In this document: positions 42,200 to 59,663 of the stretch, piece by piece
How the letters are laid out: every line of letters begins with the position of its first letter
Position numbering within the stretch: position 1 is the first letter of the stretch
DNA from: Catellatospora sp. TT07R-123
GTDB lineage: Bacteria > Actinomycetota > Actinomycetes > Mycobacteriales > Micromonosporaceae
NCBI RefSeq assembly: GCF_018327705.1
Contig: NZ_BNEM01000001.1
Span: 3,720,001-3,784,000 of the forward strand
DNA: 64,000 bases
Direction: 5' to 3'
Translations under genes and position numbers: made by a program
The notes under the pieces: generated by a model
Told to the model about the DNA's origin: nothing
Seen by the model: only the letters and a program-made list of their open reading frames with translations
Databases searched by the model: none

Positions 42200-42574
42200 G
42201 GTTGCTCCGGGGGTGTCACGGCAAAAGGGGGTGAGACGCGAACCGGATGCCGCGGAGGAACCGGCCTCCTGCCTGCGGACATCACACTCGGTGACCGCGT
42301 CGGCTCACCAACCTGCCATTCGCCCCCGGCCGAGGTCAAGCCAGGTCAGAGCACTTACGTAAAGTTTCTCAACTAGGTCGTCTCGGCTTGCGCCGCAGGT
42401 CAGAGGCCACGTAGCCTCACGTCCGCATCGCGTGTCACTGCGCGCCTCCTCGGCCGCGCAGACCGGCTGTCACGCTGCCCGGCCCACGATCCCCCGATCG
42501 CAACCCAGGCAGAACGGACACCCCATGCCCCCACAGCCTCATCCGGCTCCCGCGCGCCCGCCCCGAGCTCGCCG
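42200..42574. promoter_or_regulatory. Divergent promoter region of the conjugation operon and the M23 hydrolase gene
   Basis: It separates the leftward secretion operon from the rightward peptidase gene and so should hold both promoters; I cannot pinpoint -10/-35 boxes. At 42525 an ATG opens a 17-codon Pro/Arg-rich frame whose TGA (42576-42578) overlaps the GTG start of the peptidase gene. This may be a translational coupling leader. Confidence 0.45.
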
Positions 42575-43654: not shown

Positions 43655-44039
43655 TTTCAAAGTATGACTATTAGACCATAATGGTGCTTTATCGGATCAC
43701 GCTTTACAAGACGCCTTCCCGCCAGGCTTAGCGAAGCCTGTTTCATAGGTGCTAGTCCGCAGATAAGTCGAGGCGGCTGAGCGTTCGAGGTGTGATCGGA
43801 AGCCGACGCAACACTGCTTGAGAATGTACGCTTTTGGCCCGATCCTGGCCGCGCCCGCTTCGGGACCCGATTGTCGCTCGCCATAGGTCGGCCTAGACAA
43901 GCGACCCGGCGAGATCGTGGCTAAAGCTCGCTTCGCTCGCACCACGATCTTTCCGCCGGGCCGCTTGCTGTCCGCCCTACGGCGAGCTTTCAGCGGCTCC
44001 GCCAGCGGGTGCTGGCGCGATGGCGATCGGAGCGACCTG
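43655..44039. other. Intergenic region at the left border of the defence island
   Basis: No gene seen. GC falls here compared with the secretion operon. It contains the large hairpin at 43899-43966. Confidence 0.5.
43899..43966. repeat. Large imperfect inverted repeat
   Basis: Left arm AAGCGACCCGGCG-AGATCGTGG (43899-43920) pairs with CCACGATCT and CCGCCGGGCCGCTT (43942-43966) with a 3-nt bulge and one mismatch, enclosing a 21-nt loop with its own GCTCGC/GCGAGC-type symmetry. It lies at the junction between conjugation genes and the defence island. Terminator, oriT-like site or recombination scar are all possible. Confidence 0.65.
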
Positions 44040-44417
44040 GTGGAAAATTCTCAGGATCCTGCCCAGCGAGTCACTGTGCAGATGAAGCTGGAGGTCGACC
44101 GCAAAAATCTAGTCGAGCTTGCCTTCGGGGCCGACATTAGCGAGAGGCCCACCGTGGGAGAGGTGCGGAGTGCGGTGGTCAATCGCATGCTCACATACGG
44201 GCTCGACGGATGTCGGCGCTATTACAGGCTTGCCGAGCGGGACGCCCACGAGCGGAGCGCAAACGATCTTCATAATCGGCGGCTTGAGTGGTACCGCCAG
44301 CAGATTGACCGTGCCTGGCCCGCTCGAACCACTCGGTCACGCTCCGGTGTTGCCGCGCGCACGTTGCTTGAGGTTCTGGCGACACCCGTGGAGAACAGCA
44401 AGCCGCTTGACGAATGA
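44040..44417 (+). CDS. Small protein of unknown family, paralogue of that encoded at 59331
   Basis: A protein of about 125 residues, unknown family. The GTG at 44040 has GGAG 8 nt upstream, and similarity to the paralogue starts at RVTV just after it. Shared positions include FGAD, PT-x-x-EVR-x-AV, the segment YGLDGCRRYYRLAERDAHE and RRLEWYRQQIDRAW. The two proteins lie on the same strand at the two ends of the phosphorothioation block (44.0 and 59.3 kb). The Cys and the Trp-Tyr pair are kept. It could be a small regulator or DNA-binding protein; nothing in the sequence proves this. Confidence 0.72.
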   Translation: MENSQDPAQRVTVQMKLEVDRKNLVELAFGADISERPTVGEVRSAVVNRMLTYGLDGCRRYYRLAERDAHERSANDLHNRRLEWYRQQIDRAWPARTTRSRSGVAARTLLEVLATPVENSKPLDE

Positions 44418-44653
44418 AACCGATGGTTCCTCGCGGCCCACAGTCGCTACTTGCATGCCGATCAAGTGGAGGGCCAGAGTCCAACCTAACGGCTAACCGG
44501 CTGCCGTCGTCGGGCCTGTTTGCTGGGCCACAACTATGGGACGCTCTCTAGCATACCTGCTCAAATCCGCTCATTCAGTTTCGATCAGAATCTCAAAAAG
44601 GGGTCTCCCGAGCGTCGCTCGCCAACGGTACGCTTTCGAGCGATCAACCGAGG

Positions 44654-46990
44654 GTGACCGATGGGGGCCGTATGGAAGCACGTGAGATCTTCGACGCAGC
44701 ACCACTGGCGATTTCACAGTTCTTGAGTGAAACTGGTCAGGGTTTGTATATCCCGCCTTACCAGCGTGCGTATAGCTGGGAACAGACCAAGGTGCGGCGA
44801 CTGTTCGAGGACATAGCTCATGGCTTAACCCAGCTCACTCAGTTCGAGGATTCGATCTGCTTCCTGGGTACGGTCATCGCCCTTCGTGACCTTAGCTACG
44901 TGACGGTCGAGCCGATTCATCGCTCTCAGGTCCCCCCCAAGGTGATGACCATTATCGATGGACAGCAGCGACTGACCACCGTGTTGATCTTGGCAACGAT
45001 CCTGCATGAAGAGATTCGGCTAAGGAGCGAGCAGATCCAAGCGGATCAGACCGCTCGTTGGCTGTACAACCAAGCTCTCGACATCGTTGGTCGACTCGCT
45101 CCCACCTTCGAAGAAGACATGCGCTACGGTGACAACAACTTCCGGTATTACCCCCGCATGATTCGCTCCTATCATGACGCGTGGTCCCGGATGACCGGCG
45201 AGGCACGTTATGAATCGCCGATCGGTTTCTACCTTCATAGCTACGGCGCTCACGCACGAAGCTCCGATGCTTCGAAGCCATACAAGCATGTCGCGCTTGA
45301 AGCTGAGACTGAGCCAAGCAATCGCGAGGCCCACAACCATCTCTCACGTGTCAGGGAACACATCCGCAAAACCGTTCGGCAACAGGCGCGTGCAGATAGT
45401 TCCGACGATGGCGACGACAACTCCTTTCCTAGCCTTTCGACTGTGCTGAGTTCAGCAAAGCTGCAGAGCGCACTCTTCAACAGTGACAACGCTATCCCGG
45501 TTGAAATTCAGGAATCAATAGAGGACAAGCCTCGCTGGGCAGAGCTTCTGAGACTTATCGTCTTCGCGAACTACCTCCTGCGTCGCGTAACAGTTGCTGT
45601 CGTTACGGCCAAGCGCGAGGACTACGGCTTCGACATGTTCGAAGCCTTGAACACCACCGGTGAGCCGTTGACCGCACTGGAGACCTTTAAGCCGAAGGTC
45701 ATTCAGGCTGAGGGGCTAAAGGACTGGGAGAAGTCGCCGTCGAAAAGATCATTTGACGTCATCGATGCATTTTTGACCCGCGAGGGCGATACGGCCGACC
45801 GAAAGCAGTCGGCCACGAGCAACCTACTAGTGCCGTTTGCCTTGATCCAGAGCGGCACGAAGCTGAGCAAACGCCTCAATGATCAGCGGCGCCACCTTCG
45901 CGATCAGTTCGACAAGCAACCGGACCTGTCAACTCGCCGAGACTTCCTGGCAACACTTGAGCAGCTTGTTCAATTCACTGACGGTCCATGGAGGCATCCA
46001 GAGCAGCTCGAGGCTTATAATTCTGCGCTTAGCGGAGATGCCTCACTTGCTTTAGCAGTTCTGGGATCCGCCAAGCATGACATAGTCCAGGCGCCGCTCA
46101 CTCGTTTCTACGCGGCCTATCGCCTGTCGCCGTCGGACGAAGTGGATCGCCGAGTGCAGCATTTCTTGAGCGCTGCGCGCATGTGCGCCGCGTTCTATGC
46201 GCTCTGGCGCGGTGCTCATGGCTCCACCGCCGGCATCGATGACATCTACAGGAAGTTGATGCACCTGGGCGAGCCAGACAGCGCAGTCCCCCCGTTGGCG
46301 CGCGACCAACGGCAGCTCGCGGCCGAGATCGATGTCGACCTCCTACAGAAGTATCTGCTCAAACAACTGGGCAAAGGGGGCCTCGACGATAAGGCGAAGT
46401 GGATCACGCGTGCCGCCAGCGTGCCTGTCTACACTGCCGCCCGACCACTGGCTCGCATACTGCTGCTGGCCGCCAGCCACAACTCGTCCCCTGACGTGGA
46501 ACGGCCGGGCCTAATCAGGTGGGGTCGGGATGGGCTGCTTGAAACCATGACGTTGGAGCGCTGGCGTGACGATGCAACCCTCACCATCGAGCATGTAGCC
46601 CCGAAGGAGGCGAACGATGGCTGGGATTCGCGCATCTATGACGGCGATAACACTCAGCACACCCTGGGCAACCTCACTCTGATGCCTTCCATCGAGAACT
46701 CTTCCGCCAGCAACCGACCGTGGCCGGTTAAGAGAACGATGTATAGAGCATTTTCTGCCCCCACTATCGATGACGCGGAGAAGCTGATTAAGGAAGCGGC
46801 CGACCAGGGTTTGATTCTGGGCAGCAACGCCAACCAGATCATGTTGCAGGCACGTCACCTACCTCTCGTTGCTGCACTTGGGCAGCGCGAAGAGGACTGG
46901 TCTGTCGAGTTTGTTCACGAACGGTCCGAACGGCTGGCGTCATTGGCTTGGGACACTCTGGCGCCCTGGCTTGGGCTGCCAAAATCGTGA
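44654..46990 (+). CDS. sspE: SspE: phosphorothioate-sensing restriction protein (DUF262 + DUF1524)
   Basis: A 778-residue protein (772 if the ATG at 44672 is used). The N-terminal DUF262 domain has IPPYQRAYSWEQTKVRRLFE near residue 33 and the DGQQR motif (TIIDGQQRLTTVLIL) near 102. The C-terminal DUF1524 HNH-type nuclease has IEHVAPKEAN near 645, GNLTLMPSIENSSASN near 672 and WPVKRTMY. In the characterised Ssp system the N-terminal part senses phosphorothioate DNA and hydrolyses nucleotide, and the C-terminal part nicks phage DNA lacking the mark. It faces sspD-sspA, which supply the mark, separated by a perfect palindrome. GC is clearly lower than in the conjugation operon, suggesting separate acquisition. 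Confidence 0.9.
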   Translation: MTDGGRMEAREIFDAAPLAISQFLSETGQGLYIPPYQRAYSWEQTKVRRLFEDIAHGLTQLTQFEDSICFLGTVIALRDLSYVTVEPIHRSQVPPKVMTIIDGQQRLTTVLILATILHEEIRLRSEQIQADQTARWLYNQALDIVGRLAPTFEEDMRYGDNNFRYYPRMIRSYHDAWSRMTGEARYESPIGFYLHSYGAHARSSDASKPYKHVALEAETEPSNREAHNHLSRVREHIRKTVRQQARADSSDDGDDNSFPSLSTVLSSAKLQSALFNSDNAIPVEIQESIEDKPRWAELLRLIVFANYLLRRVTVAVVTAKREDYGFDMFEALNTTGEPLTALETFKPKVIQAEGLKDWEKSPSKRSFDVIDAFLTREGDTADRKQSATSNLLVPFALIQSGTKLSKRLNDQRRHLRDQFDKQPDLSTRRDFLATLEQLVQFTDGPWRHPEQLEAYNSALSGDASLALAVLGSAKHDIVQAPLTRFYAAYRLSPSDEVDRRVQHFLSAARMCAAFYALWRGAHGSTAGIDDIYRKLMHLGEPDSAVPPLARDQRQLAAEIDVDLLQKYLLKQLGKGGLDDKAKWITRAASVPVYTAARPLARILLLAASHNSSPDVERPGLIRWGRDGLLETMTLERWRDDATLTIEHVAPKEANDGWDSRIYDGDNTQHTLGNLTLMPSIENSSASNRPWPVKRTMYRAFSAPTIDDAEKLIKEAADQGLILGSNANQIMLQARHLPLVAALGQREEDWSVEFVHERSERLASLAWDTLAPWLGLPKS

Positions 46991-46993
46991 AAA

Positions 46994-47025
46994 TGCAGGC
47001 CTGCGGTCGCGACCGCAGGCCTGCA
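46994..47025. terminator. Perfect 32-bp palindrome between convergent sspE and sspD
   Basis: TGCAGGCCTGCGGTCG is followed at once by its exact reverse complement. It starts 4 nt after the sspE stop and lies about 100 bp behind sspD, so it fits a bidirectional terminator. Confidence 0.85.
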
Positions 47026-47125
47026 CCCCAGGGCACTACAGGCGAAACAAGCTCTAGATGTAGATGTTTGACCGCGACCCGTCACAAACGCACTGGCACG
47101 GATGAACGGCGGGCCCGATTTGGCG

Positions 47126-47962
47126 CTACAAATGGCAGACCGCGCATCCCGCCTCGTCGCTTTCCTCATCGAGGGCGTCAGTAAGAATATCGATGAGAGG
47201 CAGGTTGGGTCGACTGCGTTGGGCCGCTCTCACCAGGGCTTCTTCATGCTTGCGCTCGATTTCGTCGCGCCGGCCGATCAGCTCCCGCAATGACTCGCCC
47301 TGTGACCAGGTGTACTTGCGACCCCGGGATGCGGTGGCCTCGAAGTTGACTTTGTCTTCGTATTCCACTGCACGTTCGAACAGATCAGGGTGACGGTCGG
47401 CCAGCCCAACCCATTCGTGCTTGCGTTGAAAGAAGCAGAAGTAGCAACCTGACCTTGTACGCCATTCGTAGTAGTCCGGGAGGCCGATTCCAGCCTGGTC
47501 GAGGATGCGGTTCACGCCGTCTAGATCGACTCCGTCCTCCCTGAAGGGGAACACGGCCGTGATGTTGGTTTTAGTGCTGATGTAGCCCAGCCTGTTCTCG
47601 TCCGCCCTGATGGCCACGTATGAGATTGCTTGGTCATCTCCCAACCAATCCTCGAGTGGCTTGAGCTTCAGTTGCCTGGTGCACCATCGCATGCTGGCGC
47701 TCGGTAACGTTCCCTGGTAGATCTGCATCCAGTGGTCGAAGTCGCGGGCCGCATTAAGCCGAACGATTTGTTTGCCGAGCGCCCCTTCGAGACGACTCAG
47801 GAAGTCGTAGGTCTCGGGCAGTTCGGCACCGGTGTCGCAGAAGAAGTACTCCATCTGCGGCACCTTGTCTCGCATGTGTACAGCTAGCGCCGAGGAATCT
47901 TTGCCGCCAGAGATGCCCAGGACGTGTCGGATTGGCTGGGCAGTCTGCACCGGGATGGTCAT
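47126..47962 (-). CDS. sspD: SspD: PAPS-reductase-like ATP pyrophosphatase
   Basis: A 278-residue protein of the PAPS reductase/DndC type. The PP-loop SGGKDSSALAVHM is at residues 18-30, then FFCDTGAELPETYDFL. WCTRQLKLKPLE, SGCYFCFFQRKHEWVG and the final CAVC carry cysteines that could hold an Fe-S cluster as in DndC. With ATP it would activate the DNA backbone and receive sulfur from the desulfurase in the single-strand phosphorothioation reaction. It is the last gene of the leftward sspABCD order; sspC ends 43 bp before its start. Confidence 0.88.
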   Translation of the reverse strand: MTIPVQTAQPIRHVLGISGGKDSSALAVHMRDKVPQMEYFFCDTGAELPETYDFLSRLEGALGKQIVRLNAARDFDHWMQIYQGTLPSASMRWCTRQLKLKPLEDWLGDDQAISYVAIRADENRLGYISTKTNITAVFPFREDGVDLDGVNRILDQAGIGLPDYYEWRTRSGCYFCFFQRKHEWVGLADRHPDLFERAVEYEDKVNFEATASRGRKYTWSQGESLRELIGRRDEIERKHEEALVRAAQRSRPNLPLIDILTDALDEESDEAGCAVCHL

Positions 47963-48005
47963 CCTACGCCTTCTTTCGCGGGGGTATGTCTGGCATCGTG
48001 CGGGG

Positions 48006-51000
48006 CTATGCTTCGCTCTGCTGGTCAGAGAGGACTTCTTGGGCTAGCAGAGCAAGCAGGATTCGCGCGCCGTTGGCTCCCAGGGCCTCTCGCGCTTGCC
48101 GAGCCACATCGCTTGCGAGTGATCTACCTCGCTCGATTTTGGCGTCGGGGACATGAACTATTGCCCTGTCCTCATCGCCGGAGCCGCTGGTCAGGGTGAT
48201 CACGTGGGATGTCACCGCCTCGTCGGCGGCAAGCGTCTTTCGGTCTTCGAGGATATGGCTTACGCGATCGACGGAGCGAGCGAGCGCTCGTGCCTGCTGA
48301 ACGAAGGTCTCCTCGTCTGTGTCGCGCCACTGGTTTATGCCGCGACCTGCGATCCGGAGGACAAGCGGGTCGAGCCACGATTCGTCGTCGAGTTCAGTGT
48401 TGGTGGCAAGGTTGACCAGCCCTTGAACGGAGGGCTCCAGGCCACCCACGCCTTGAAGACCCGCTACGTTACGAGCCAGGTCTTTGCGGAACTGCGTCAG
48501 ATGTGGGTCAGCCTGGAATGCCTCAGCAGCCGTCGCAACGACGCGTGATGCGAGCTCGTCTTGTAGCGACGCCAGTTCGTCCATAACTTCGGCCAGCCGG
48601 CGCGCGTAGGTGTTGATCATCGCTTTGTCCGTGCGGCCTTCGCGGTTGATCGGCTCTAGGCCCAGCGCCTGCGGCAGCTGAACGAAAAGCAGCCCGTCTA
48701 TCTCCTGGGCTGTGCTCAGAGCCGCGCGGACCTGTTGTGCCTGCGCGCTGGTGCGCCGCGTGGACACGGCATAAGGGGTGAGCGCCCTGTACCGATCGAG
48801 CAGCGCGCGGGCTACCGCTACCGGCGCCGCGTTGCGGATGTTGGCGGCAACTGCTCGGTCATTGAGTCCTAGCGCGGCGGCCAGGGCGGTCAGGGCAGCT
48901 TTGCGAGGTCCTGAATCTGTCGCCATGGACCGGATGGCGAACCGGCCGGGGGCTTTGGTGATTCTCTCCGCAAGGTCCGCTGTGACCCGCGGTTTGAACG
49001 ATCCCTCCTCGAACACTGCAAGATCTCTGTCGCCTAACAGCAGCGCGGTCAGGATTACGACTGGCGCGATGCCCTTCTTCACGCCGTACGGCGGCTTGGC
49101 GAGCAGGTCGAACAGCTCCTGCACGGAAACCGACCTGTCTTCCTTCCTCAGGGCAGCGTGAAGCGCATTCCAAGCCGGGGCCAGGGTGGAGCCGGGCTGC
49201 GGGGGGCGGAAAGCGAAGCGAACGATCTCGTCTGCGTCGCTGTCCGGCTCGGTGTCGTCGATGTCGTGTATGCCGAGGTAGTGCAGCACCCCGCTATACA
49301 TGGCCCGTTCCGGGCCGTAGCCCTCGACACCGAGGTGACGCTCTCGCGGATGATCGATCATCGCGGTCATCAGCTCACGCCGAGCCTTGGCGCCTTGGCT
49401 GGTCAGCTCATGCCGGCCAAGCATCTCGTTGCGGATGCGGGGGGACTCGGTGAACACAGCATCGCAGGCTGCCGAAACGATGCTGGCCATGCTGCGGCCT
49501 CGCAGAACGATGCTTTCGCTGGTCTGATCCTCGGTGTTCGGCTTGACGAGGTGCCACGTTGTGCCGTCCGCCGTCGGCGAGAACGCCGTGGCGATCTTTC
49601 CCGCGACGTCGGCGCTGACTTGTGCGCTTCTCTCGGTGAGTTCCCTGCGTGCGACGCTGTCGAGGGTGACATCCCTTAGCAGTTCTTCGATGGCGACGAA
49701 CTGGCCTGCCGCTTGGAGGAGTTCGGCGAGTGCTGTGGTGGTGCCCACCACCACCGGTAGTTCGGAAGAGATGCGCGGGACTGTCAGCGGCTCGCCGAAA
49801 TGGAAGATGAGCGTGCCGTCTGCGGCGTCTTCGACTGTCGGCAGCGATTCAAGTCGAGTCTGGGGGTCTGTTGCTTTCGTGACGAAGTGGCGGAGAATGC
49901 CGGTCTGCTGGCTGTGCTTGCCTGCGACAACAGCTCCGGGCAGGAAGCGGCTGATACCAGTGACCTTGCTGTGATCGTCCAGCTTGTCGACGATCTCTTT
50001 GATGCGCGCTCCCAGGTCGACGTCACTTCCGCGCCAGACACGGTACTCATCGCTGAACTCTCGGTAGACCAGGAAGTCCCCCTGGTCGACGAGCTCGTCG
50101 AGTCGTTCCTTCAGGCGGTGGCGTCGGCTGGAGTCGTCAAGCTCGTCCGGCTCCGAGATGGCGAGGTAGATCATTTCCTCGCTGGCACGGAGCGCCCCTG
50201 AGGCATCGATCAAATTGAGGACGCCGATCGTCTTCAGCAGTTTCTCGTCTTCAGACGACAGGCCGTGCGCCTCGTTGATCCGCGAGTCAATCTCGATCCA
50301 TCGACTGGCATTGCTTGAGGCCAGCACCGACGTCCTGCCTGCGGTGAGGAAGTAGTCGTAGACGTCGGAGATGTGAACGGTGGACGCAATCTTCGGCTTG
50401 GCGGTCTCATGATCGGTGATGAACCGCCGCACGGTGTGCGGTTCATCGCTGGCCAGAAAACCCGTGATGCTCCGGTCGTGCTGACCAATCTGCGCTGCCA
50501 GCAGTGGTGCGACAACCGCCGTGATCGGGTGTAACGGGTACACGCTAGAGAAAAGGGCGTCGTCTGCGGGCAGGACCCCATCGAGACCGTGGTCCTGCCA
50601 GGCGCGTGCCGCTACCGCCGCGTACTTGATGATGCGTTTGCGCCCTGTTGCGTCAACGCCGGAGCTGTCAAGCGTTCGAGCCATGAGCTGGATCGCGTCG
50701 CCGATGTGGGCGGTGAGGGTGACGTCTTCGAAGCGTCCTTGGATCTTCGCCCACTCGCGTGACTGCAGCCCGGATGAGTGAGCAGCGTAGTCCTGGAATG
50801 ACATGTGCTGCAGCGTCATGAGGAACAGCGGCAGCCCTTGAGCTCCTGCGCCCGACTCGGCGATCTCCTGAAGCAGGAACACGTCGTCCTTGGCTTCGGC
50901 ATTGTCACCGCGGAACGCCAGGTGTTCCAATGACTTGCCGAACTCGTCGATGACGAGCAGCACAGGCGCGTGGTCGCAGATGCAGGCCAGAGCTTCGAGC

Positions 51001-51554
51001 ACTTCCGTGCTCGCCGCGTTGTCGCTCTCCAACCTTGCGAGGGCCTTGGCCACCGGCCGAGGCATGGTCCGAGTCGTCCAGTACCGGTCTACTCCAAGAC
51101 GCAGGGCTCGCGCGACGGTAACGACGAGAGGCTCTCGCCGCGCGGTGGTCACAGCGGTGAGCATGCCTTTCGGGACCTGTCGCTCACGTGCGGCAGCGAA
51201 CCTTTGCGCCAATGTCGCACTGACTGCAGACACGCGCTTGTCAGCTTCTGCCTGCCGATCCGGGTCAGGACCCAGCAGCGCTTGCAGGAGCAGGGCAAGG
51301 GTCGACTTACCCATTCCGTAGGGGCCGGTCAGCGACCAGGCCCGGGTACGGGTGGCGTCGTCGAGCGCCGCCGCCACCCGTTCGATCATGTCTTGAGCGC
51401 GGGCGCCTACATGGATGTGGTCCAGTGGTGCGCTACTCGCGTCACGGTCGAGGTTCGTGGATCTCAGCTGGCTGGATACGATCTGTACGCCAAGCGGCAG
51501 CTCGGGCTTGCCAGCGTCGCTGACCTTCTTCGACGTCTTGGCCACCGGGCTCAT
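48006..51554 (-). CDS. sspC: SspC: large P-loop ATPase of the phosphorothioation system
   Basis: A 1182-residue ATPase. Walker A is GPYGMGKST at residues 77-85; VLLVIDEFGKSLEHLAF near 205 is Walker B-like, followed by FLMTLQHMSFQDYA. The central and C-terminal parts are long, mostly helical, without other motifs I can name. Its ATG overlaps the sspB stop (ATGA). In the known system SspC is an ATPase needed together with SspB and SspD to place the sulfur. Identity rests on the order desulfurase - DUF4007 - large ATPase - PAPS reductase, which is that of sspABCD. Confidence 0.87.
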   Translation of the reverse strand: MSPVAKTSKKVSDAGKPELPLGVQIVSSQLRSTNLDRDASSAPLDHIHVGARAQDMIERVAAALDDATRTRAWSLTGPYGMGKSTLALLLQALLGPDPDRQAEADKRVSAVSATLAQRFAAARERQVPKGMLTAVTTARREPLVVTVARALRLGVDRYWTTRTMPRPVAKALARLESDNAASTEVLEALACICDHAPVLLVIDEFGKSLEHLAFRGDNAEAKDDVFLLQEIAESGAGAQGLPLFLMTLQHMSFQDYAAHSSGLQSREWAKIQGRFEDVTLTAHIGDAIQLMARTLDSSGVDATGRKRIIKYAAVAARAWQDHGLDGVLPADDALFSSVYPLHPITAVVAPLLAAQIGQHDRSITGFLASDEPHTVRRFITDHETAKPKIASTVHISDVYDYFLTAGRTSVLASSNASRWIEIDSRINEAHGLSSEDEKLLKTIGVLNLIDASGALRASEEMIYLAISEPDELDDSSRRHRLKERLDELVDQGDFLVYREFSDEYRVWRGSDVDLGARIKEIVDKLDDHSKVTGISRFLPGAVVAGKHSQQTGILRHFVTKATDPQTRLESLPTVEDAADGTLIFHFGEPLTVPRISSELPVVVGTTTALAELLQAAGQFVAIEELLRDVTLDSVARRELTERSAQVSADVAGKIATAFSPTADGTTWHLVKPNTEDQTSESIVLRGRSMASIVSAACDAVFTESPRIRNEMLGRHELTSQGAKARRELMTAMIDHPRERHLGVEGYGPERAMYSGVLHYLGIHDIDDTEPDSDADEIVRFAFRPPQPGSTLAPAWNALHAALRKEDRSVSVQELFDLLAKPPYGVKKGIAPVVILTALLLGDRDLAVFEEGSFKPRVTADLAERITKAPGRFAIRSMATDSGPRKAALTALAAALGLNDRAVAANIRNAAPVAVARALLDRYRALTPYAVSTRRTSAQAQQVRAALSTAQEIDGLLFVQLPQALGLEPINREGRTDKAMINTYARRLAEVMDELASLQDELASRVVATAAEAFQADPHLTQFRKDLARNVAGLQGVGGLEPSVQGLVNLATNTELDDESWLDPLVLRIAGRGINQWRDTDEETFVQQARALARSVDRVSHILEDRKTLAADEAVTSHVITLTSGSGDEDRAIVHVPDAKIERGRSLASDVARQAREALGANGARILLALLAQEVLSDQQSEA

Positions 51555-52654
51555 GCCTGTCCTCCCACAGTCGCAAGCTGACGGCCGCGTCCGGCCTGCC
51601 GTGTCTGCAGGGCGTCATGAGCTCCAGGATGGTCTGCGTACCACTGCCGCGCCGTAGGAGTCGGGTGCTTCTTCCGAATTCCGCCGTAGTGCGCGTCGAG
51701 CAGATCCCACGCCAGGGCTTTAGGGTCTGTTTTGAAGGTGAGGCTGCGCTGGCCGAGTCCCTCGGTGAGTGTCACATTCTTGTGCCGTGCTGCGGCCTGT
51801 TCCAGCGCGGCGGCGATCTCCGGCTCTCGAACCCGGAACGCACGCCCGGGTCCGCCTGGTTCATGGGCGAGCCGGGCCAGCGATATCGAGCCGCCCTTGG
51901 CGAAGCCGTCGTTGCGCGCCGCGTAGTCAAGGCAGGCGTAGGCCAGGACAAGGGCCGGCAGCGAGCTTCGCGCGGTGGTGGTGAACTGCCAGGCGCGGGG
52001 CGTTTTCGAGTGCTCGTTGACATCGGCTGCGACAGCTTCGAGCAGGCCAAGCTCCCTGAAGGGGCAGTCCAGTAGGTCTTCGAAGCTGCCCGGTGACAAC
52101 GGGTTGGTCCGCCGCCGGGCGTACATTTTGGTCAGACAGTCCACGTCGCGCTCGATTGATGCCAGAGCTGGCGGCTCCCACCCGGCCAGCCTGACGTTTC
52201 GCACCACGATCTCTGTCAGGGACGCCTCAGTAAACCGTGAGGTGGGCATGGCGTGAAAGGCGATCCACCACGTCGGCACGTAGCATGGCGGCGCCAATAG
52301 CCACCAGTGCAGCAGCCAGAGGCTGGCGGTATCTTCCAAGTACGGGTCGGCACCTTCTTCGTCGAGCAGCCAGCGAGCCTCCCACAGGGGGCTGGACTCG
52401 AACGCTCTGATGTTCGCCGCCTTAGGGTACTCGATGGACACCTTGAAGGCGTTGGACCAGAAGCGGATCGCGTTGACCATGTTCTTGCCGACACCGAGCA
52501 CGACCGGTGCGTCATTACGCAGGAAGACCTCTGCCCCGACATTCGGGTCGGTCAATGAGCTATAGGCTTTGTGAAGCCAGCCGAACCGTGGGGCGAATGT
52601 CTCGTGGCGGGCGAAGGAAAATTCCGCCACGTCCCTCAGCTTAGTGTCGATCAT
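51551..52654 (-). CDS. sspB: SspB: DUF4007 protein, strand-nicking subunit
   Basis: A 367-residue DUF4007 protein: FSFARHETFAPRFGWLHKAY, then VVLGVGKNMVNAIRFW and later FREWGLL-like FRELGLLEAV are typical. Known SspB is a nickase that opens one strand at the site to be modified. The gene is coupled to sspC by overlap and lies 69 bp behind sspA. A GAGAGG stands 9 nt before the ATG. Confidence 0.88.
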   Translation of the reverse strand: MIDTKLRDVAEFSFARHETFAPRFGWLHKAYSSLTDPNVGAEVFLRNDAPVVLGVGKNMVNAIRFWSNAFKVSIEYPKAANIRAFESSPLWEARWLLDEEGADPYLEDTASLWLLHWWLLAPPCYVPTWWIAFHAMPTSRFTEASLTEIVVRNVRLAGWEPPALASIERDVDCLTKMYARRRTNPLSPGSFEDLLDCPFRELGLLEAVAADVNEHSKTPRAWQFTTTARSSLPALVLAYACLDYAARNDGFAKGGSISLARLAHEPGGPGRAFRVREPEIAAALEQAAARHKNVTLTEGLGQRSLTFKTDPKALAWDLLDAHYGGIRKKHPTPTARQWYADHPGAHDALQTRQAGRGRQLATVGGQA

Positions 52655-52723
52655 GTGGGTGATACCTCTCGTGCCACCGTCGGTGGCGGCTTCTACGGTT
52701 GCGGGTTGGCAAGATGAAGCGGG

Positions 52724-53896
52724 TTAGCTCATGGCTGTACGAACCCGCCTCACCGCATCGCCTACCTGCATGATCGCTTCCTCGATTTCTGCGGCGGTCG
52801 TGGCGTGGCCGAGCGAGAAGCGTACTGTCGACTCCGCGTGTTCGCGGCTGCGGTGCATGGCGAGCAGAACGTGGCTTGGCGTCAGCGCCCCAGAGGCGCA
52901 GGCGCTGCCGTCTGAGGCGGCTACACCGGGCATAGCGCTGAGCAGGGCGTCTGCTGGAATTCCGCGGAAGGCGAGGCTGCTTACGCCGGGAAGTCGGAAG
53001 TCAGGGTGCCCATTGCGTTCGACCCCGTTGACCGTGGCGAGAATTCCCGCTTCAAGGTGATCACGTAGTGTCATCACCCTCCGCCGCTCGACCTCCAGTT
53101 GGTCGGCTGCGGCACGGGCGGCAGCTCCCATGCCCACGACGCCGGCCACGTTCAAGGTGCCGGAACGCCAGCCGCGCTCTTGGCCCCCTCCCCTCAGCAG
53201 AGGCTCGAATGCCACGGGGCATCCACGTCGCAGAAACAGCGCGCCGACGCCTTGCGGACCGCCGAACTTGTGAGCAGACAGCGACAGCAGGTCGATGTCG
53301 AGCAGGCTCAGGTTCATCGGAAGCTTGCCCACGAGTTGGGTCGCATCAACATGCAGTAACGCGCCAGCACGCCGGGTGATCTTGGTGATGGCGGCTAGGT
53401 CGGTCAGCACTCCGGTCTCGTTGTTGGCCGCCATGACGGACACGACGCTCCCGCCCGAGCCGGCCACAGCGTCCTCCAGCTCGTCCAGGAGCAGCAGTCC
53501 GTCTTCGTCGACCCCGATGATGCGAAGATCTGCGACAGGCAGTGCTCGGGCGGCTTCGAGGACTGCCGGGTGTTCTACCGCGGAGACCACGACACGCTGT
53601 GCTCTGACTGCCGCCGCGTGCAGGGCCAGGTTATTCGCTTCGGTGGCACCGGAAGTGAAGATGATCTCGTTCGGTGCGGCCCCGATGAGGTGCCCGACCT
53701 CGTTGCGCGCGGACTCGGCGCGCTCGGAAGCCCATCGCCCCAGCGTATGGGCACTTGAGGCGTTCCCCACCCGAAGAAGGGCCTCGCTCATGGCGGCCCA
53801 CGCTTCCGGCCTGAGCGGCGCGGTGGCGTTGTAGTCGAGGTAGATGACCTCGCTCGCCTCTCTGCTGAGGCCCTGCACGTCATCCTCCCGCGGCAC
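52724..53896 (-). CDS. sspA: SspA: cysteine desulfurase
   Basis: A 390-residue IscS/NifS-like PLP enzyme. PLP lysine is Lys210 in SLSAHKFGGPQG; catalytic Cys333 is in SDGSACASGALTPSHVL; His109 (SAVEHP) and Asp184 (LHVDATQ) are in place. YLDYNATAPLRPEAW at 19-33 is the usual N-terminal signature. It takes sulfur from L-cysteine and passes it, as a persulfide, to SspD for the DNA phosphorothioate. A dedicated desulfurase in the cluster means the system does not depend on the host IscS. First gene of the sspABCD set. Confidence 0.92.
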   Translation of the reverse strand: MPREDDVQGLSREASEVIYLDYNATAPLRPEAWAAMSEALLRVGNASSAHTLGRWASERAESARNEVGHLIGAAPNEIIFTSGATEANNLALHAAAVRAQRVVVSAVEHPAVLEAARALPVADLRIIGVDEDGLLLLDELEDAVAGSGGSVVSVMAANNETGVLTDLAAITKITRRAGALLHVDATQLVGKLPMNLSLLDIDLLSLSAHKFGGPQGVGALFLRRGCPVAFEPLLRGGGQERGWRSGTLNVAGVVGMGAAARAAADQLEVERRRVMTLRDHLEAGILATVNGVERNGHPDFRLPGVSSLAFRGIPADALLSAMPGVAASDGSACASGALTPSHVLLAMHRSREHAESTVRFSLGHATTAAEIEEAIMQVGDAVRRVRTAMS

Positions 53897-54098
53897 CCCT
53901 AGACTCTAGCCGAGGCTCCTGGATGGCCGCGACCGCCCGTCGCGGCGTTCGTCCAGTAGTCGACCGCCGCCGGAGATCATACGTCGCGAAGCAAACACCT
54001 GTTCGAAAAATCATCCTTTCGGCTGATGGGCTCGACCGATCGCCCCACCCCGCGATGATGGCCCGCAGCGGGGTGGGGGCGTCGACTACGGTGGGGCC

Positions 54099-54515
54099 CT
54101 ACCCGAGAGCTGCCGGGTCGAGTCTGTTGAGGATCGTGACCGAAGGTTCGACATCGCCGATGAGGCACTCGTTGATCAGCCACTCGAGGCCATAGTTGGC
54201 GTAACTGGAGGCGATCGCGATGACCTTCGTCGGGTGTCGGAGCACCTCTTCACCTTCTGTGGCCAGGGCGAGCAGCTCGAGATGGACGATGCGCCATGGA
54301 TCTCGACCGAAGATGGTTCCGTCCATGAACTTCGTCGTCTTGGCGCCGGGTTCCATCGGTCGGCGTTGCGAGGCCTTGACTCCCACACTGATGGCGAGCC
54401 ACCACGCGTCGATCTGCCGTTCGAAGGGTTTACCGGCCCCCGTGGCATCCCTAATGTGGCGGTGCAGCTGCTCGGGCATGTATAGGTCCACCGCGGCATA
54501 GCGATTCGAGATCAT
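54099..54515 (-). CDS. Small protein of the second phosphorothioation-linked module (SspF-like candidate)
   Basis: A 138-residue soluble protein. AVDLYMPEQLHRHIRDATG, QIDAWWLAISVGVKASQRR and KVIAIASSYANYGLEWLINE suggest a mixed alpha/beta fold with a Trp-rich helix. I do not know the family. It follows the SMC-like gene by 13 bp and precedes sspA by about 200 bp on the same strand, so it belongs to the same transcription unit. By position in the block it could be the small member of an SspFGH set, which is a guess. Confidence 0.55.
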   Translation of the reverse strand: MISNRYAAVDLYMPEQLHRHIRDATGAGKPFERQIDAWWLAISVGVKASQRRPMEPGAKTTKFMDGTIFGRDPWRIVHLELLALATEGEEVLRHPTKVIAIASSYANYGLEWLINECLIGDVEPSVTILNRLDPAALG

Positions 54516-54528
54516 CGCACGTACTCAC

Positions 54529-56661
54529 TCACTGTCGCTCGACATAGCTCAAGCCCAACTCGTTGTCCTGCTTTCGAGCGCACACGCGGCACTGCTGCAG
54601 GTGGGAGCAATCACAGACGACCGAGACCGGGCCTTCGACGGGCCAGGGGTTAACGATCTCTGTCGGGTAGTGGTGGCTGCAGGAGAGCGTCGAGTAGGCC
54701 CCGGCCCGTGCCGTGATGAGGTCTTCGACTCCCGCCATCTCGGAGCGCGTCAGCAGCAGCACAACCTGGAAACCGGTGCCCGTGGCCCCAGGGGGGCGGG
54801 TGATCGCCTCCACCATGCGCCGTTTGGTCTCGCCGGAGACCATGCCGAGCGGAGTGTCGATGAACCGGGGTGCTTCGACGCCGGCAACCTCCATAAGCGA
54901 CCAGACGAACGACAGTGTGAGCGCGCGCTGCGATGCTCCGTTGACCTCGAAGTCAGGGTCGAGACTCGTTCCGTGTTGGCTCGATATGGTGATGTCGAAG
55001 TTGCTGGTGATCGAGACGTCGGTGAAAACGCTCTTGCTGGGATCGCTGTCAGTGCCGACGATCCCCATGAACATGCCGCCGAGCTGGTCGGAGACGCGCT
55101 GGACGTAGTCGGTCTGAAGACGGTCCTGCACGGCCGTGGCCAGTGTTAGCAGGTCTTCGCTGACGCTCTTCTTCAAGACTTGATCGCGGCCGACGTCAGC
55201 CTCGCGCTGGGCCTTGTCGACCTGTTGCTGCTTGTCATCAAGGGCGCGCTTCTCGTTGGTGATCTGGTTCTCAAGGTGGATCTTGTGAGCGAGAGCTTCG
55301 TTGAGCTTCTTCTCCAGGTCAGCGAGATCCTCTGCCAGCAAACGCACCCGTTCGTGGTCGATGAGCTTACGTCTGTCGAGGGCGAGGTTGAGTGAGACCG
55401 CCTTGGTCCGATGGTCTGCGGTAATGGCGGAGTATTCCTCGAGCAGCTCAAGTCTGGCCGCACGGTACGCCTCGCCGTCAGGCGTCAGATCCCGAAGCGC
55501 CTTACTCTGGTACCGCAGCTGGGAAAGATGGTCGATGATCTCGGACTGCTCACGCTGCCTACTCAACAGCTCGGCGACGTGCGACCGAAGGTCTGAGCCC
55601 TCCTCTAGCGATTGCCCGCAGATGCAGACGCCCATCTCCAGCCGGTCGGCAAGGACCTGCACCGCCGTACTGGGGATGATGTTCTTCTCTGCCAACCCTT
55701 CCAGCCGAGCCATGCCGCGGCTCAACAGATCTGCTCCCAGCGCCCAAGACAGCGGCTCGCCGGCGTAAAGTTCGCGCATCTTGCGTAGACATTTGTCCTT
55801 GCGCGTTCTCAGTCCCTCGATATCACGCTCGAGGTTGCCGATCTCCATGTTGATCGAGTCGAGATCGCCAATGCCTCGGATCGCGTTGAGCTCTCGCTGC
55901 TTGGTCTCCTTGTCGTGTTCCATGACCCGTCGCCTGGCAACGGTCTTCTCAAGGTCCGCGCTCAGCCGCCCGACCGCCAGCTGAAGGTCGTCACGCTGGC
56001 TGATGAGGTTTTCGACCTTCGACCCCGCCAGCCGCGCGACCTTGCGCTCGAACTGCTGCTGTACTGCTTTGATGTCGGACACGGCGTCGGCCAGCATGCT
56101 GATGCCTAGCAGGTTCTTGATGGCGCGATGCACCTTCTCCTGGCGCTCATGCGTGTCCACCTTGCCTGTGATGAACTTCTGCACATCGTCGCCATTGGTG
56201 AAGAAGACGTCTGCTAGCCGGTTGGGCAACAAACGCTCCACCCATGCCTCAGGCGAGGCAACCTGCTTATCACCGGCGCTTTCATGCCGCCACAGCGTCA
56301 ACGTCTCCCGTCCCCGGCTGACCTCTCCGTGCCCTGGAGTCTCGCGCACGCTGCGGCGCAGGGTGTAAGTCGCTGTGTCATTGTTCTGGTCAGTCACCTC
56401 GAATGTGATCTCGACATCGACATCGACGGACGTGCCCGGCTCTAGAGCCGTCGATGTCAAACGAAGGCGATCGACACCAGAGATGACCTTGAGCCGCTCG
56501 GCGCCATAGAGACCCCAGAGCAGCGCATAGTGAAATGAGGTCTTCCCAGAACCGTTCTCAGCACGCACCACGGTGAGCGGACGGTTCCGGTCGACCGAGA
56601 ACTCGATCTTGACGTCTCGCAGAAGCTTGAAGTTGCGCACATGGACGCCCAGTAGGCGCAT
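54529..56661 (-). CDS. SMC/DndD-like ATPase (SspG-like candidate)
   Basis: A 710-residue protein with ABC/SMC heads at both ends and a coiled coil between. Walker A is AENGSGKTSFHYALLWGLYG near residue 34; the signature region GASQRALTLSFVW and Walker B PRFIDTPLGMVSG are near 590-630. A CIC pair (VCICGQSLEEG) lies at the middle of the coil where DndD/Rad50 have a zinc hook. The C-terminus carries a Cys-rich end (Cys683, 685, 691, 694) likely to bind zinc. DndD-like ATPases act in phosphorothioation systems and in the restriction arm of some. It starts with an overlap to the 71-residue protein gene (TGATG). Confidence 0.8.
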   Translation of the reverse strand: MRLLGVHVRNFKLLRDVKIEFSVDRNRPLTVVRAENGSGKTSFHYALLWGLYGAERLKVISGVDRLRLTSTALEPGTSVDVDVEITFEVTDQNNDTATYTLRRSVRETPGHGEVSRGRETLTLWRHESAGDKQVASPEAWVERLLPNRLADVFFTNGDDVQKFITGKVDTHERQEKVHRAIKNLLGISMLADAVSDIKAVQQQFERKVARLAGSKVENLISQRDDLQLAVGRLSADLEKTVARRRVMEHDKETKQRELNAIRGIGDLDSINMEIGNLERDIEGLRTRKDKCLRKMRELYAGEPLSWALGADLLSRGMARLEGLAEKNIIPSTAVQVLADRLEMGVCICGQSLEEGSDLRSHVAELLSRQREQSEIIDHLSQLRYQSKALRDLTPDGEAYRAARLELLEEYSAITADHRTKAVSLNLALDRRKLIDHERVRLLAEDLADLEKKLNEALAHKIHLENQITNEKRALDDKQQQVDKAQREADVGRDQVLKKSVSEDLLTLATAVQDRLQTDYVQRVSDQLGGMFMGIVGTDSDPSKSVFTDVSITSNFDITISSQHGTSLDPDFEVNGASQRALTLSFVWSLMEVAGVEAPRFIDTPLGMVSGETKRRMVEAITRPPGATGTGFQVVLLLTRSEMAGVEDLITARAGAYSTLSCSHHYPTEIVNPWPVEGPVSVVCDCSHLQQCRVCARKQDNELGLSYVERQ

Positions 56662-56876
56662 CAGGCCCTCCCGCTGAGCTGGATCACCCTAGATCCGATC
56701 GTCTCGACCAACCTTGCGATGTGGTCTTGACGCTGGCGAGGATCGGACGTGGGCTGCTCTCGGATCAGCGTGTCCAAGGCCATGACCAGCTCGCCGTGAT
56801 AGCCGGTACAGCGGTCGTCGAGGGATACCACCTCCTGGCGTGCCACTTCCAGGATTCGGGGTGTGGTGGCTGACAT
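56661..56876 (-). CDS. Small protein, unknown, coupled to SMC-like ATPase
   Basis: A 71-residue mostly helical protein (RQEVVSLDDRCTGYHGELVM, QDHIARLVETIGSRVIQL). It lies between the helicase gene (14 bp away) and the SMC-like gene (1-nt overlap). The tight coupling says it is a partner of one of them. No known family recognised. Confidence 0.65.
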   Translation of the reverse strand: MSATTPRILEVARQEVVSLDDRCTGYHGELVMALDTLIREQPTSDPRQRQDHIARLVETIGSRVIQLSGRA

Positions 56877-56890
56877 CTGTTCCTTTCGCC

Positions 56891-59215
56891 CTAGAGCATC
56901 CGTTCAAGGTTATTGATCAATACGCGGGGGCCGTCAGGGTCGTACTCATTATCGGCGGTCCCGGCGAACTCGCGCACCCGCGCCAACTCGCCGAGTAGCA
57001 GCGAGCGGCCTTCTCTCGTTCCTGGTTCCGGCGGAACCACGAAGAAGTCATGCAGGTGAGCGAGGTCCTTGCCAGCCGCGCGCCGCAGGATCCGGCCGCG
57101 GCGCTGCACCCACTCTCGCCGAACCGTGCTCGAGGCCAGCAGGTAGGCGGTGTCGGTTTGTGGAATGTCGATGCCCTCGTCGAGCACCTTCATCGCCGTA
57201 AGTACCTGGTAGTCGCCGTTTCCGAACGCCTCTAGATATCGCTGAGAACCGCGCTGTGACGTCTCTTCGCTGGTGAACTCATGAAACCGGACACTCAGTG
57301 ATCGCAGCATCGCATTAACATCGTCGATCTGTCGGCCGCCCCCCAGCGTTGACGGCTTCGCCGAGGCGTAGATCAGCGTTCTGCTGATATTGCGAGCGCC
57401 GGTGCCGGCAAGGAGGCTGCGCAACTTGGGAAGCTTCGCCTCTGCGTGTTCCAGGATCGCCCGACGCTTACGCAGCAGGTGCTCGACCTGGGCGTCAACG
57501 CCCGACTCCTGTCCGTCGTCGGCACGGAGGAAGCCCTTACGCTGCAGCTGACGGGTGAGATCGACATAGGCCGCCATCTCATGCTCGGCCAGAGGCACCT
57601 CGTGCAGGTAGTAGTTGTAGGGGGTTAGGCATCCGGCCCTGATGGCGTCTTGAATTCCGAACTCGAAGACCTGGTCGCCGAAGAACTCAAACAGCGTCGT
57701 GCTGCCCGTTGGGTCGTACTGCCGCTGAGGGGTGGCCGACAGGCCCAGCCTGACCTCGAACCGGTCAGGCTGCCTCTCCAGGAATCCTCTCGAACCTAGG
57801 TTGTGGACCTCATCGCCAACGAGCATGGTCAGGACCCGCTCAGGCAGCTGTTCGATGAACTCTCTGAACGTGGCGTCACCGACGAAGAGCTTCTGGGTAC
57901 AGACCGCCACCACAGTGCGCTGTACGTCGCCGGCAAAACCTGCCCGAATCTCCTGCAGCCGCGCCTGCCGCTTCGCGCTGGCAAGTTCGCTGGGCAGGAA
58001 CGGGTCTACCCCGAATATCGAAACGACTTCGGCCCACTGACGCATCAGCGGCGCACCGGGCACGATGATCAATACGAACATCGGGCCTCGGTGGCGGTCC
58101 TGCTCCAAGACCGCAGTAATCATGGCTGTCTGCGTCTTGCCCCCACCTGTAGCGATCGCAAGGATGCCCCTTGAACCAGCCTCCCGGAAGCTGTCTACGG
58201 CCAGCCCTTGATGCGCGAAGCGCCCCGTCCGCCATTCAACGCCCTCCGGTATGGCCAGCAGCCGGGGCGCTGCCACCTCCAGGCCCGGCGGCAAAGGCGG
58301 CTCAAGGCCACGGACATGGTCGGCGTGCCATGCTCGCCAGAAGTCATCGACCGTGGGCATCTGCGGCGCCCCGGACACGCCTGCAGTAAGGCGAAGCCCT
58401 TCGGCCAGTTCGATCGTCAGCAGATGCGCGCTGCGATTGTGCCAGTCACGATCCCAGCCAGCGATCAGCTTCTCGACGCGCGCCTTGGCAACAGGCCCGT
58501 CGCTCCACGCACGGTCGACGGTCATCTGCTCCCCGTTCACGAGGAGCCCGCGAGTGGTCGCGTTGCCGGATCCGTGGACTACCGCCCAGTCGTCACCGGA
58601 ACGCAGCAGCCACTGCTTCTTGTGGTACTGGCCGACCTTCATCAGCGCGAACCTGACCCGCAAGCGCCGAGACGCGACGAGGTATGCCAAACAGTCAAGA
58701 GTGTGATGTACCAGCGCCCGATCCGACAGATGGGCATCCTCCAGCAACTTGTCCGCAGCCTCCTGAATGACCACCTCGGCAGTCTTCAGCCCGCGCTCCA
58801 TGGCGTCCCGATCGGCCGCATCGATCGCCGGGCTGATTAACAGATGAAGAGCGCTGTCGGAGCTGCGCAGGAACGACGCGAGACCCGGGGCAATCTGCGC
58901 AAAGCAGTGAGAGGTGAAGAATCCGGCGCCGATTCGCACCTCTTCCGACGCCGCCATGGCGGGTACCAGAACCTCACCAACAAGATCGTCTTCTGGTATC
59001 TCGTACACGGGCGCTGACGCACGGAGAGCGTCACGAAGCGTCTCGTTCACGGGCCAGCGGCCCGGGTCGCCCGCAAGCAAGTGGGGCAGGCGGATATCAG
59101 CACACGCACACCAACGGCTTTCACAGCTATTAGCCCAGGTCAACCCGAGCTTCTCTCCGATCGGACCCGAGCCCGGGTCCACTCCATACATGAGTTTACG
59201 GAGCGGCACCGACAA
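56891..59215 (-). CDS. Superfamily II helicase with N-terminal PLD-like domain (SspH-like candidate)
   Basis: A 774-residue protein. The N-terminal part (about 60-250) is phospholipase D-like: GQYHKKQWLLRSGDD and VVHGSGNATTRGLLVNGE resemble the HKD and GSxN motifs, in weakened form (His-Lys-Lys). A full SF2 helicase follows: AIATGGGKTQTAMI (motif I) near 350, VGDEVHNLG (motif II) near 470, LGLSATPQR (III), LDEGIDIPQTDTAYLL (V) and QRRGRILRR (VI). Such PLD-helicases are found in several defence systems. As the promoter-proximal gene of the set leading to sspA, it is a candidate restriction nuclease of an SspFGH-like module. Confidence 0.8.
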   Translation of the reverse strand: MSVPLRKLMYGVDPGSGPIGEKLGLTWANSCESRWCACADIRLPHLLAGDPGRWPVNETLRDALRASAPVYEIPEDDLVGEVLVPAMAASEEVRIGAGFFTSHCFAQIAPGLASFLRSSDSALHLLISPAIDAADRDAMERGLKTAEVVIQEAADKLLEDAHLSDRALVHHTLDCLAYLVASRRLRVRFALMKVGQYHKKQWLLRSGDDWAVVHGSGNATTRGLLVNGEQMTVDRAWSDGPVAKARVEKLIAGWDRDWHNRSAHLLTIELAEGLRLTAGVSGAPQMPTVDDFWRAWHADHVRGLEPPLPPGLEVAAPRLLAIPEGVEWRTGRFAHQGLAVDSFREAGSRGILAIATGGGKTQTAMITAVLEQDRHRGPMFVLIIVPGAPLMRQWAEVVSIFGVDPFLPSELASAKRQARLQEIRAGFAGDVQRTVVAVCTQKLFVGDATFREFIEQLPERVLTMLVGDEVHNLGSRGFLERQPDRFEVRLGLSATPQRQYDPTGSTTLFEFFGDQVFEFGIQDAIRAGCLTPYNYYLHEVPLAEHEMAAYVDLTRQLQRKGFLRADDGQESGVDAQVEHLLRKRRAILEHAEAKLPKLRSLLAGTGARNISRTLIYASAKPSTLGGGRQIDDVNAMLRSLSVRFHEFTSEETSQRGSQRYLEAFGNGDYQVLTAMKVLDEGIDIPQTDTAYLLASSTVRREWVQRRGRILRRAAGKDLAHLHDFFVVPPEPGTREGRSLLLGELARVREFAGTADNEYDPDGPRVLINNLERML

Positions 59216-59330
59216 CGCCCGGCGCCGGGTAAATCGACCGCGCCCGCACTCCTAGGGAAAGTTCCAGCCAGGTGGAAAACAGCAGCGTGGCATTTGCCAG
59301 ATAAGTCGGATTTCAGACAGTATCGCACTT

Positions 59331-59663
59331 ATGCGGGTAACACTTACGGTCGAACTTGAACCGCGAACGCTCTCCCACATCCTGTTCGGTGCGGATCTTG
59401 ACAACGACCCGACCCCGGCGGAGGTACGACGCGCCGTCCAAGATCAGCTTGCACGTCATGGCATCGATGGCTGCGAACATCGCTATCGCCTTGCAAGACG
59501 CGATGCCGAGGAGTCCGGACACCTCGATGCGCACTCCCGACGCATGGCGTGGTACGCGGAGCAGATCGCCAACGCATGGCGCGAACAGTCCCCGAGGCTT
59601 AAGCTGCCCACCACACCGCGCCCCCTTCTGGAGACACTGTTTACGGACGACTCAAGCGTTTGA
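59331..59663 (+). CDS. Small protein of unknown family, paralogue of that encoded at 44040
   Basis: A 110-residue protein. MRVTLTVELEPRTLSHILFG at the start and the segment HGIDGCEHRYRLARRDAEES match the protein at 44040, as do PTPAEVRRAV and RRMAWYAEQIANAW. It is divergent from the helicase gene at 59215. Both copies are rightward while the block between them is mostly leftward. Function unknown. Confidence 0.72.
   Translation: MRVTLTVELEPRTLSHILFGADLDNDPTPAEVRRAVQDQLARHGIDGCEHRYRLARRDAEESGHLDAHSRRMAWYAEQIANAWREQSPRLKLPTTPRPLLETLFTDDSSV

Follow-up and report, generated by a model that had tools for sequence, protein, structure and literature searches.

A predicted SspABCD phosphorothioation island with SspE and PbeABCD as candidate effector arms in Catellatospora sp. 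TT07R-123

Which restriction module accompanies SspABCD and SspE in the putative phosphorothioation island of Catellatospora sp. TT07R-123? The question is raised by a 64,000-nucleotide stretch of this genome (NZ_BNEM01000001.1, positions 3,720,001 to 3,784,000; hereafter the window), in which a nine-gene block spans 44.6-59.2 kb. An earlier reading of the same DNA by a model (the original prediction) had proposed a complete SspABCD system with SspE and a second, SspFGH-like restriction module in one island. A second restriction-type arm is indeed present; its name has to be changed, since the gene families are those of PbeABCD. This shifts the finding from the known SspE-SspFGH pairing to an SspABCD-PbeABCD pairing, which recurs in many other bacteria. 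We consider it probable that the island is an SspABCD phosphorothioate (PT) system with two PT-dependent effector arms, SspE and PbeABCD, which would share one mark.

Ssp genes and the identity of the second module

The gene sspE lies on the forward strand and faces sspD-C-B-A on the reverse strand, converging with sspD across a 135-bp gap (Table 1), in agreement with the original prediction. Upstream of sspA, four further minus-strand genes encode, in transcription order, proteins of 774, 71, 710, and 138 aa; these are the PLD-helicase, the SMC-like ATPase, and the two small proteins that had been predicted ahead of sspA. Adjacent genes are separated by 14 bp (pbeA-pbeB), 13 bp (pbeC-pbeD), 69 bp (sspA-sspB), and 43 bp (sspC-sspD), or overlap by 1 bp (pbeB-pbeC) and 4 bp (sspB-sspC), and the widest gap in the minus-strand block is that between pbeD and sspA (202 bp). 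Because the spacing ranges from a 4-bp overlap to 202 bp, the block likely forms one or two operons.

The modification set contains a cysteine desulfurase, a DUF4007 protein, a large ATPase, and a 3'-phosphoadenosine-5'-phosphosulfate (PAPS) reductase-like protein, all with strong PADLOC matches, and its catalytic residues are intact, as had been claimed. We read Cys333 and Lys210 in SspA, the PP-loop SGGKDS in SspD, and the Walker A motif GPYGMGKS in SspC. For the SspA product, the PADLOC model of DndA (3.3e-118) follows close behind that of SspA (4.2e-124). SspB aligned over nearly its full length with the solved SspB 6juf (6.1e-120) and, by analogy with characterised systems, would act as a DNA nickase. 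A search of solved-structure (PDB) sequences with SspD gave no match. SspE carries DGQQR at residues 102-106 of its DUF262 domain, the PT-sensing Y/Q/R residues, and the HNH residues of DUF1524. It aligned over residues 7-775 of 778 with the solved Streptomyces SspE (E 1.9e-293), and Y30/Q31/R32, R404/R408, and N676 of the solved protein, together with the His of EHVAP, are all kept. Mutant positions described for the solved protein are Y30, Q31, R100, R404/R408, and N676 (PMC9646914). By analogy with this relative, SspE would be a PT-sensing GTPase and nickase, and the first effector arm.

Judged by its gene families, the second module is pbeA-B-C-D, in the order of the archaeal DndCDEA-PbeABCD system. 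PbeA combines an HKD nuclease with a superfamily 2 (SF2) helicase, a small protein separates PbeA from PbeC, and PbeC is a CxC-type ABC-ATPase. The NCBIfam matches of PbeA, PbeC, and PbeD (TIGR04095, TIGR03185, and TIGR04062, respectively) are all below the cut-offs of that collection. The HKD residues H198, K200, S216, and N218 of PbeA (HKK, GSGN) and its helicase motifs are intact, and these four residues are invariant in every PbeA row with a residue at the site. The protein likely starts at the GTG at 59050, since homologous open reading frames (ORFs) begin near residue 56-58. PbeB matched no family in the Pfam, PADLOC, and NCBIfam scans, and a 71-aa homologue occupies the equivalent place in three other loci (L023-L025). 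PbeC has a CICG hook at 346-349 and a Rad50-like predicted structure (mean predicted local distance difference test score, pLDDT, 81.9); it had no match in the phage collection. The position of PbeD fits a DndE cognate. Its predicted structure (pLDDT 93.7) found DndE chains as the first four Foldseek matches, at E values of only ~1, which makes the link to the DndE fold suggestive only. Among PDB sequences, PbeD had a single weak match, apparently unrelated.

The marker dndC (TIGR03183), which accompanies pbe genes in DndCDEA-PbeABCD, had no match in the whole host genome, and a Dnd modification encoded elsewhere in the genome was rejected as a candidate on this ground. The Pbe arm therefore stands beside single-strand (Ssp), not double-strand (Dnd), phosphorothioation.

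Recurrence and phylogeny of the Ssp-Pbe pairing

The main set of PbeA loci comprised the best 80 of 134 relatives in named genomes, ranked by likeness to the window; the query alignment (A1) also included four other PbeA, two of them Ssp-paired and two Dnd-paired. Neighbour labels were called from local profiles. The iterated SspD profile drifted into DndC, and SspD was used for a label only where no dndC match was present. The neighbours of PbeA were of the ssp type in 30 of the 80 loci (strictly 29, once a locus with a type-4-BREX-like set, L047, is put aside), dndC in 23, and neither in 27, many of which end at contig ends; with a set ranked in this way, these fractions are not prevalences. 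Six extra loci from other genomes of the window's phylum were divided evenly, two each, among ssp, dnd, and neither.

Among 396 genomes of that phylum, 15 contain a PbeA-like match (E <=1e-20, several covering the helicase part only), nine a DUF4007 match, and three both side by side. Six of 398 genomes from the phylum of a Moraxella locus (L090) have a PbeA match (E <=1e-30), one of them ssp-paired (G617, the contig of L036). Anywhere in the genome, dndC was found in 33 of the 50 non-ssp genomes searched for it, and DUF4007 in 5 of 50 such genomes searched for that family. Outside these scans, matches also occurred in 27 plasmid records; of the eight plasmid loci examined, two are independent cases of the pairing. 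On the Sphingomonadaceae OTU29MARTA1 plasmid, sspA-B-C-D and pbeA-B-C-D stand in one row with an integrase, and on the Rhizobium indigoferae plasmid pbeC-D-A faces sspD-C-B-A. SspE, counted only from matches above 600 bits and with weaker DUF262 matches near Dnd loci left out, accompanies Ssp and Pbe at five further loci (L028, L029, L035, L059, and L074), so the full set of the window has relatives.

Some of these loci hold further genes beside pbe. L047 (1367-14732) encodes in one row an SspC/BrxC-like protein, a PglZ-like protein (below cut-off), BrxL, pbeA-B-C-D, and a cysteine desulfurase, and looks like PbeABCD beside a type-4 bacteriophage exclusion (BREX)-like set, that is, PT-type BREX. 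Directly upstream of pbeA, a protein of ~780 aa with a match to sigma-70 region 4 is encoded in L026 (7625-9955) and L027 (7605-9977; below cut-off), and in three plasmid loci (L141, L143, and L144) pbe has neighbours named as sigma-factor-like helix-turn-helix proteins. DndB-family genes (PF14072) lie between pbeD and sspD in two Ssp-Pbe loci (L031, 6414-7676; L037, 15022-16278).

A quick PbeA tree with 87 rows places the window in a clade of 28 rows (Shimodaira-Hasegawa-like approximate likelihood ratio test, SH-aLRT, 100), of which 26 have ssp partners, none has dndC, and two have no partner label. In one of these two (L040), PbeA lies near a contig end and the genome has DUF4007 on other contigs; the other (L045) is in a draft genome without a DUF4007 match. 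The ssp members of the clade belong to Actinomycetota, Chloroflexota, Pseudomonadota, Acidobacteriota, Verrucomicrobiota, Planctomycetota, Rhodothermota, and Candidatus Poribacteria. The same clade was recovered in the PbeC tree (27 rows, support 100), which, like the SspC tree, was built with FastTree only. Elsewhere in the PbeA tree, ssp partners occur in marine gammaproteobacteria (L059, L068, L069, and L074), Bacteroidota (L091 and L096), and Treponema (L066, whose branch in the SspD tree is very long), and the partner label requires three changes when rows without a label are dropped.

The trees of the two modules conflict. The window group joins L026 and L027 (Dehalococcoidia and Arenicellales) in the PbeA tree (support 100), whereas in the SspC tree it joins L017, L018, L039, and L041 (100), with L026 and L027 in another, largely proteobacterial group. 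Similarly, L043 combines a PbeA of the clade type with an SspC of the marine gammaproteobacterial type. Across loci, ssp genes occur both upstream and downstream of pbe and on either strand. Given this conflict and the varying gene order, it looks as if Ssp and Pbe modules have been repeatedly re-paired, and the persistence of linkage while order and partners change points to function rather than to one inherited frozen block.

The window PbeC has an extra C-terminal tail with four cysteines (C683, C685, C691, and C694). In 81 of the 87 rows, those with a missing or too short PbeC being left out (L043 of the clade, L062, L071, L085, L099, and L102), the ending C-x-C-x(4-7)-C-x2-C was present in 27 of 27 clade members and in none of 54 outside; strictly the latter count is 0/51, as L086, L092, and L101 were scored on an ORF located just behind dndC, probably DndD. 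All 25 sequences of alignment A3 keep the four cysteines, and the tail was modelled at pLDDT ~75-90. A later-fetched set held 16 loci, from which L135 was dropped as a duplicate of L036. Two of these fall into the clade by best match, L139 having the tail and L155 holding no PbeC, and the tail was found in none of the 14 outside it (strictly 0/12, since in L145 and L146 the ORF tested was not the neighbouring PbeC). We infer that the tail is a zinc-binding adaptor, and it is the best candidate for the feature that fits Pbe of this lineage to the single-strand mark or to Ssp proteins.

Genomic setting of the island

The host genome measures 9.17 Mb in two contigs. From 44 kb onward, the GC content of the window is 0.57-0.65, compared with 0.66-0.73 at 32-44 kb (2-kb steps). 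The closest named PbeA relatives, among the best 80 of 134, are from Streptosporangiaceae, and a search of 10 other genomes of the genus gave no PbeA match at E <=1e-30; the latter result fits a horizontal gain of the island.

Table 1. Genes of the Ssp-Pbe block and neighbouring features, with positions in the window
Feature	Position	Strand	Match or basis	Location
sspE (DUF262 + DUF1524)	44654..46990	+	PADLOC SspE 3.5e-291; GmrSD_N, GmrSD_C	island
sspD, PAPS-reductase-like ATP pyrophosphatase	47126..47962	-	PADLOC SspD 5.6e-115; PF01507 2.2e-09	island
sspC, large P-loop ATPase	48006..51554	-	PADLOC SspC E 0, 1170 bits	island
sspB, DUF4007	51551..52654	-	PF13182 2e-82; PADLOC SspB 2.3e-106	island
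sspA, cysteine desulfurase	52724..53896	-	PADLOC SspA 4.2e-124; Aminotran_5 5.3e-68	island
pbeD, DndE-like, 138 aa	54099..54515	-	TIGR04062 dnd_assoc_4 8.6e-07	island
pbeC, CxC-type ABC-ATPase, 710 aa	54529..56661	-	PADLOC PbeC 5.6e-49; TIGR03185 DndD 1.9e-32	island
pbeB, small protein, 71 aa	56661..56876	-	position and size; homologue in L023-L025	island
pbeA, HKD nuclease-SF2 helicase fusion	56891..59215	-	PADLOC PbeA 5.5e-170; TIGR04095 dnd_restrict_1 1.3e-102	island
TrwC relaxase	19-3843		profile match	left of island
Type IV secretion system coupling protein	34043-36127		profile match	left of island
TrbL-like protein	39728-41179		weak match	left of island
M23 peptidase	42575-43654		profile match	left of island
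MkoB, Mokosh-like, C-terminal S1 domain	59887-61626	-	4.5e-51	right of island
MkoA, Mokosh-like	61623-63986	-	1.8e-146	right of island

To the left of the island, at 19-3843 and within 32342-43654, are a relaxase, a coupling protein, and other genes of conjugative type, and the defence genes may thus lie on a conjugative element. Genes of ordinary metabolism are interspersed between the relaxase and the coupling protein, and for this reason we make no claim that the element is single and intact. Searches of the window for tRNA genes, and of 43.6-60.0 kb for direct repeats of at least 25 bp, gave no match. On the right, the Mokosh-like pair is followed by an acyl-CoA dehydrogenase gene past the window end.

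Two related small proteins (43917-44417, +; 59331-59663, +; 42% identity over 103 aa) bracket the Ssp-Pbe block and could mark the edges of a cassette. They are the only two copies in the whole genome, and the family matched in 5 of 151 relatives' genomes, the host's own included. It gave no match in the plasmid records searched, and no copy was present at any other locus fetched by the time of the search. Further to the left, the gene at 14226-16970 (-) is possibly another for defence; its product combines TIR and CHAT protease domains.

Two candidate arms on one mark

The four pbe genes, their order, and their similar sizes are shared with DndCDEA-PbeABCD of Haloterrigena jeotgali A29 (PMC6459918), where PbeB has 66 aa and PbeD 152 aa, compared with 71 and 138 aa here. 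The window differs in having SspABCD in place of DndCDEA, in adding SspE, and in the PbeC tail, which is absent from the Dnd-paired PbeC examined. With SspABCD-SspE, whose SspE is known from Streptomyces yokosukanensis (7DRS; PMC9646914), it shares five genes and the key residues, but pbeABCD stands in the same block as a second effector module. SspABCD-SspFGH of Vibrio anguillarum FF-93 (PMC8092258) likewise joins the Ssp module to an extra multi-gene effector, of another family and with three genes rather than four; as SspE and SspFGH are reported there to be able to share one SspABCD, a premise of the original prediction, it sets a precedent for two arms using the same mark. The systems anchored by a CxC ABC-ATPase that Rakesh et al. 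2024 (PMC10853773) describe have the same core: PbeA is read there as an HKD nuclease with an SF2 helicase, PbeB as small and disordered, PbeC as the CxC ABC-ATPase, and PbeD as the DndE cognate. These are linked there to Dnd genes and methylases, and pairing with Ssp is not mentioned in the passages on Ssp consulted. PMC7464106 surveyed pbeA-D alongside dnd and ssp genes. In the open-access literature searched, we found no description of the SspABCD-PbeABCD pairing.

Based on characterised systems, SspA-D would insert sulfur into a single strand of the host DNA, presumably at the motif CCA. SspE, if it behaves as its Streptomyces relative, would bind PT on self DNA, hydrolyse GTP, be released, and nick invading DNA. 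The domains and the archaeal system suggest that the Rad50-like ATPase PbeC, with its CxC hook, may scan DNA together with the DndE-like PbeD, that PbeA may stop phage DNA replication or cut DNA, and that PbeB probably regulates or bridges. Archaeal PbeABCD protected only with PT, blocked viral replication without visible cleavage (PMC6459918), and was not toxic without PT, whereas SspFGH is. Both arms of the window are likewise expected to need PT to act, and a loss of PT would leave them idle, not toxic, unlike SspFGH and DndFGH.

We also favour, with some more reserve, a wider view in which SspABCD-PbeABCD is a distinct and widespread type of PT defence. Here a Pbe lineage with a four-cysteine, probably zinc-binding PbeC tail would read single-strand PT or dock to Ssp, provide Ssp with a third restriction arm in addition to SspE and SspFGH, and explain some of the PbeAC genes that have been reported as solitary. 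Several points weigh against the reading of two arms that share one mark. Pbe also stands beside Dnd or neither system, in the 23 and 27 loci counted above, in a set whose ranking itself favours likeness to the window. In one genome (G263), Pbe is paired with dnd and DUF4007 is encoded on another contig, which shows that the two kinds of system can coexist in a cell. None of the seven Ssp-paired loci outside the clade carries the tail, which is thus a lineage mark, not a general need for Ssp pairing. The Mokosh-like pair adjoins the block, a sign of defence genes clustering in islands. The view that archaeal Pbe acts without cleavage has been disputed on account of the HKD domain (PMC10853773), and since H198, K200, S216, and N218 are unchanged here, PbeA may cleave DNA.

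Three other explanations were weighed against two arms sharing one mark. A divergent SspFGH, which would take missing PT as foreign and damage unmodified DNA, could be expected from the position beside sspABCD and sspE and from the known compatibility of SspFGH with SspE. Published SspFGH, however, has three genes, a Walker A motif in SspF, and an FtsK/SpoIIIE-like C-terminus in SspH (PMC8092258), whereas the second module has four genes whose products match PbeA, PbeC, and DndD-type families, and no FtsK-like domain appeared in the Pfam scan. No SspF, SspG, or SspH model is among the PADLOC matches listed for its proteins (for PbeC, 25 of 67 listed). The SspF model (PDLC02793) had no match in the genome, a soft result because this model was silent in control genomes, and SspG and SspH were not searched genome-wide. 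With another known defence family matching better, which the original prediction had named as a refuting outcome, the SspFGH assignment fails at the sequence level, and we regard a divergent SspFGH as extremely improbable.

Alternatively, PbeABCD may be a neighbour through island clustering only, idle or serving another modification, with SspE alone working with SspABCD. Defence islands do gather unrelated systems, such as the Mokosh-like pair next to PbeABCD, and 320 of 553 PbeAC were reported without dndCD, 155 of these near methylases (PMC6459918). The clade of Ssp-paired Pbe without a dndC neighbour in 28 rows, the linkage kept across many arrangements, and the clade-specific PbeC tail argue in the other direction and make chance proximity unlikely. 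PbeC and PbeD might instead serve modification, as DndD-DndE paralogues that scan the DNA and direct SspABCD to additional sites or to the other strand. This would agree with the likeness of PbeC to DndD (Table 1), with the weak likeness of PbeD to DndE in fold, and with the scanning role given to the ATPase-DndE pair in PMC10853773. In the archaeal system, however, any single pbe deletion impaired protection and modification was ascribed to DndCDEA (PMC6459918), and Ssp systems make PT without a DndE cognate (PMC10853773); such a role is distinctly improbable.

PbeABCD has so far been described as a partner of double-strand Dnd marks. If the SspABCD-PbeABCD pairing is functional, a Pbe lineage is tied to single-strand Ssp marks, PT effector and modification modules would be interchangeable, and Ssp would gain a third candidate effector. 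Ssp is also a possible partner for some of the PbeAC reported without dndCD (PMC6459918). The PbeC tail, being clade-specific, offers a way to test how an effector recognises its PT mark. For a mobile element, it would be safe to carry two arms that, as expected here, both depend on PT, and none that attacks DNA lacking it.

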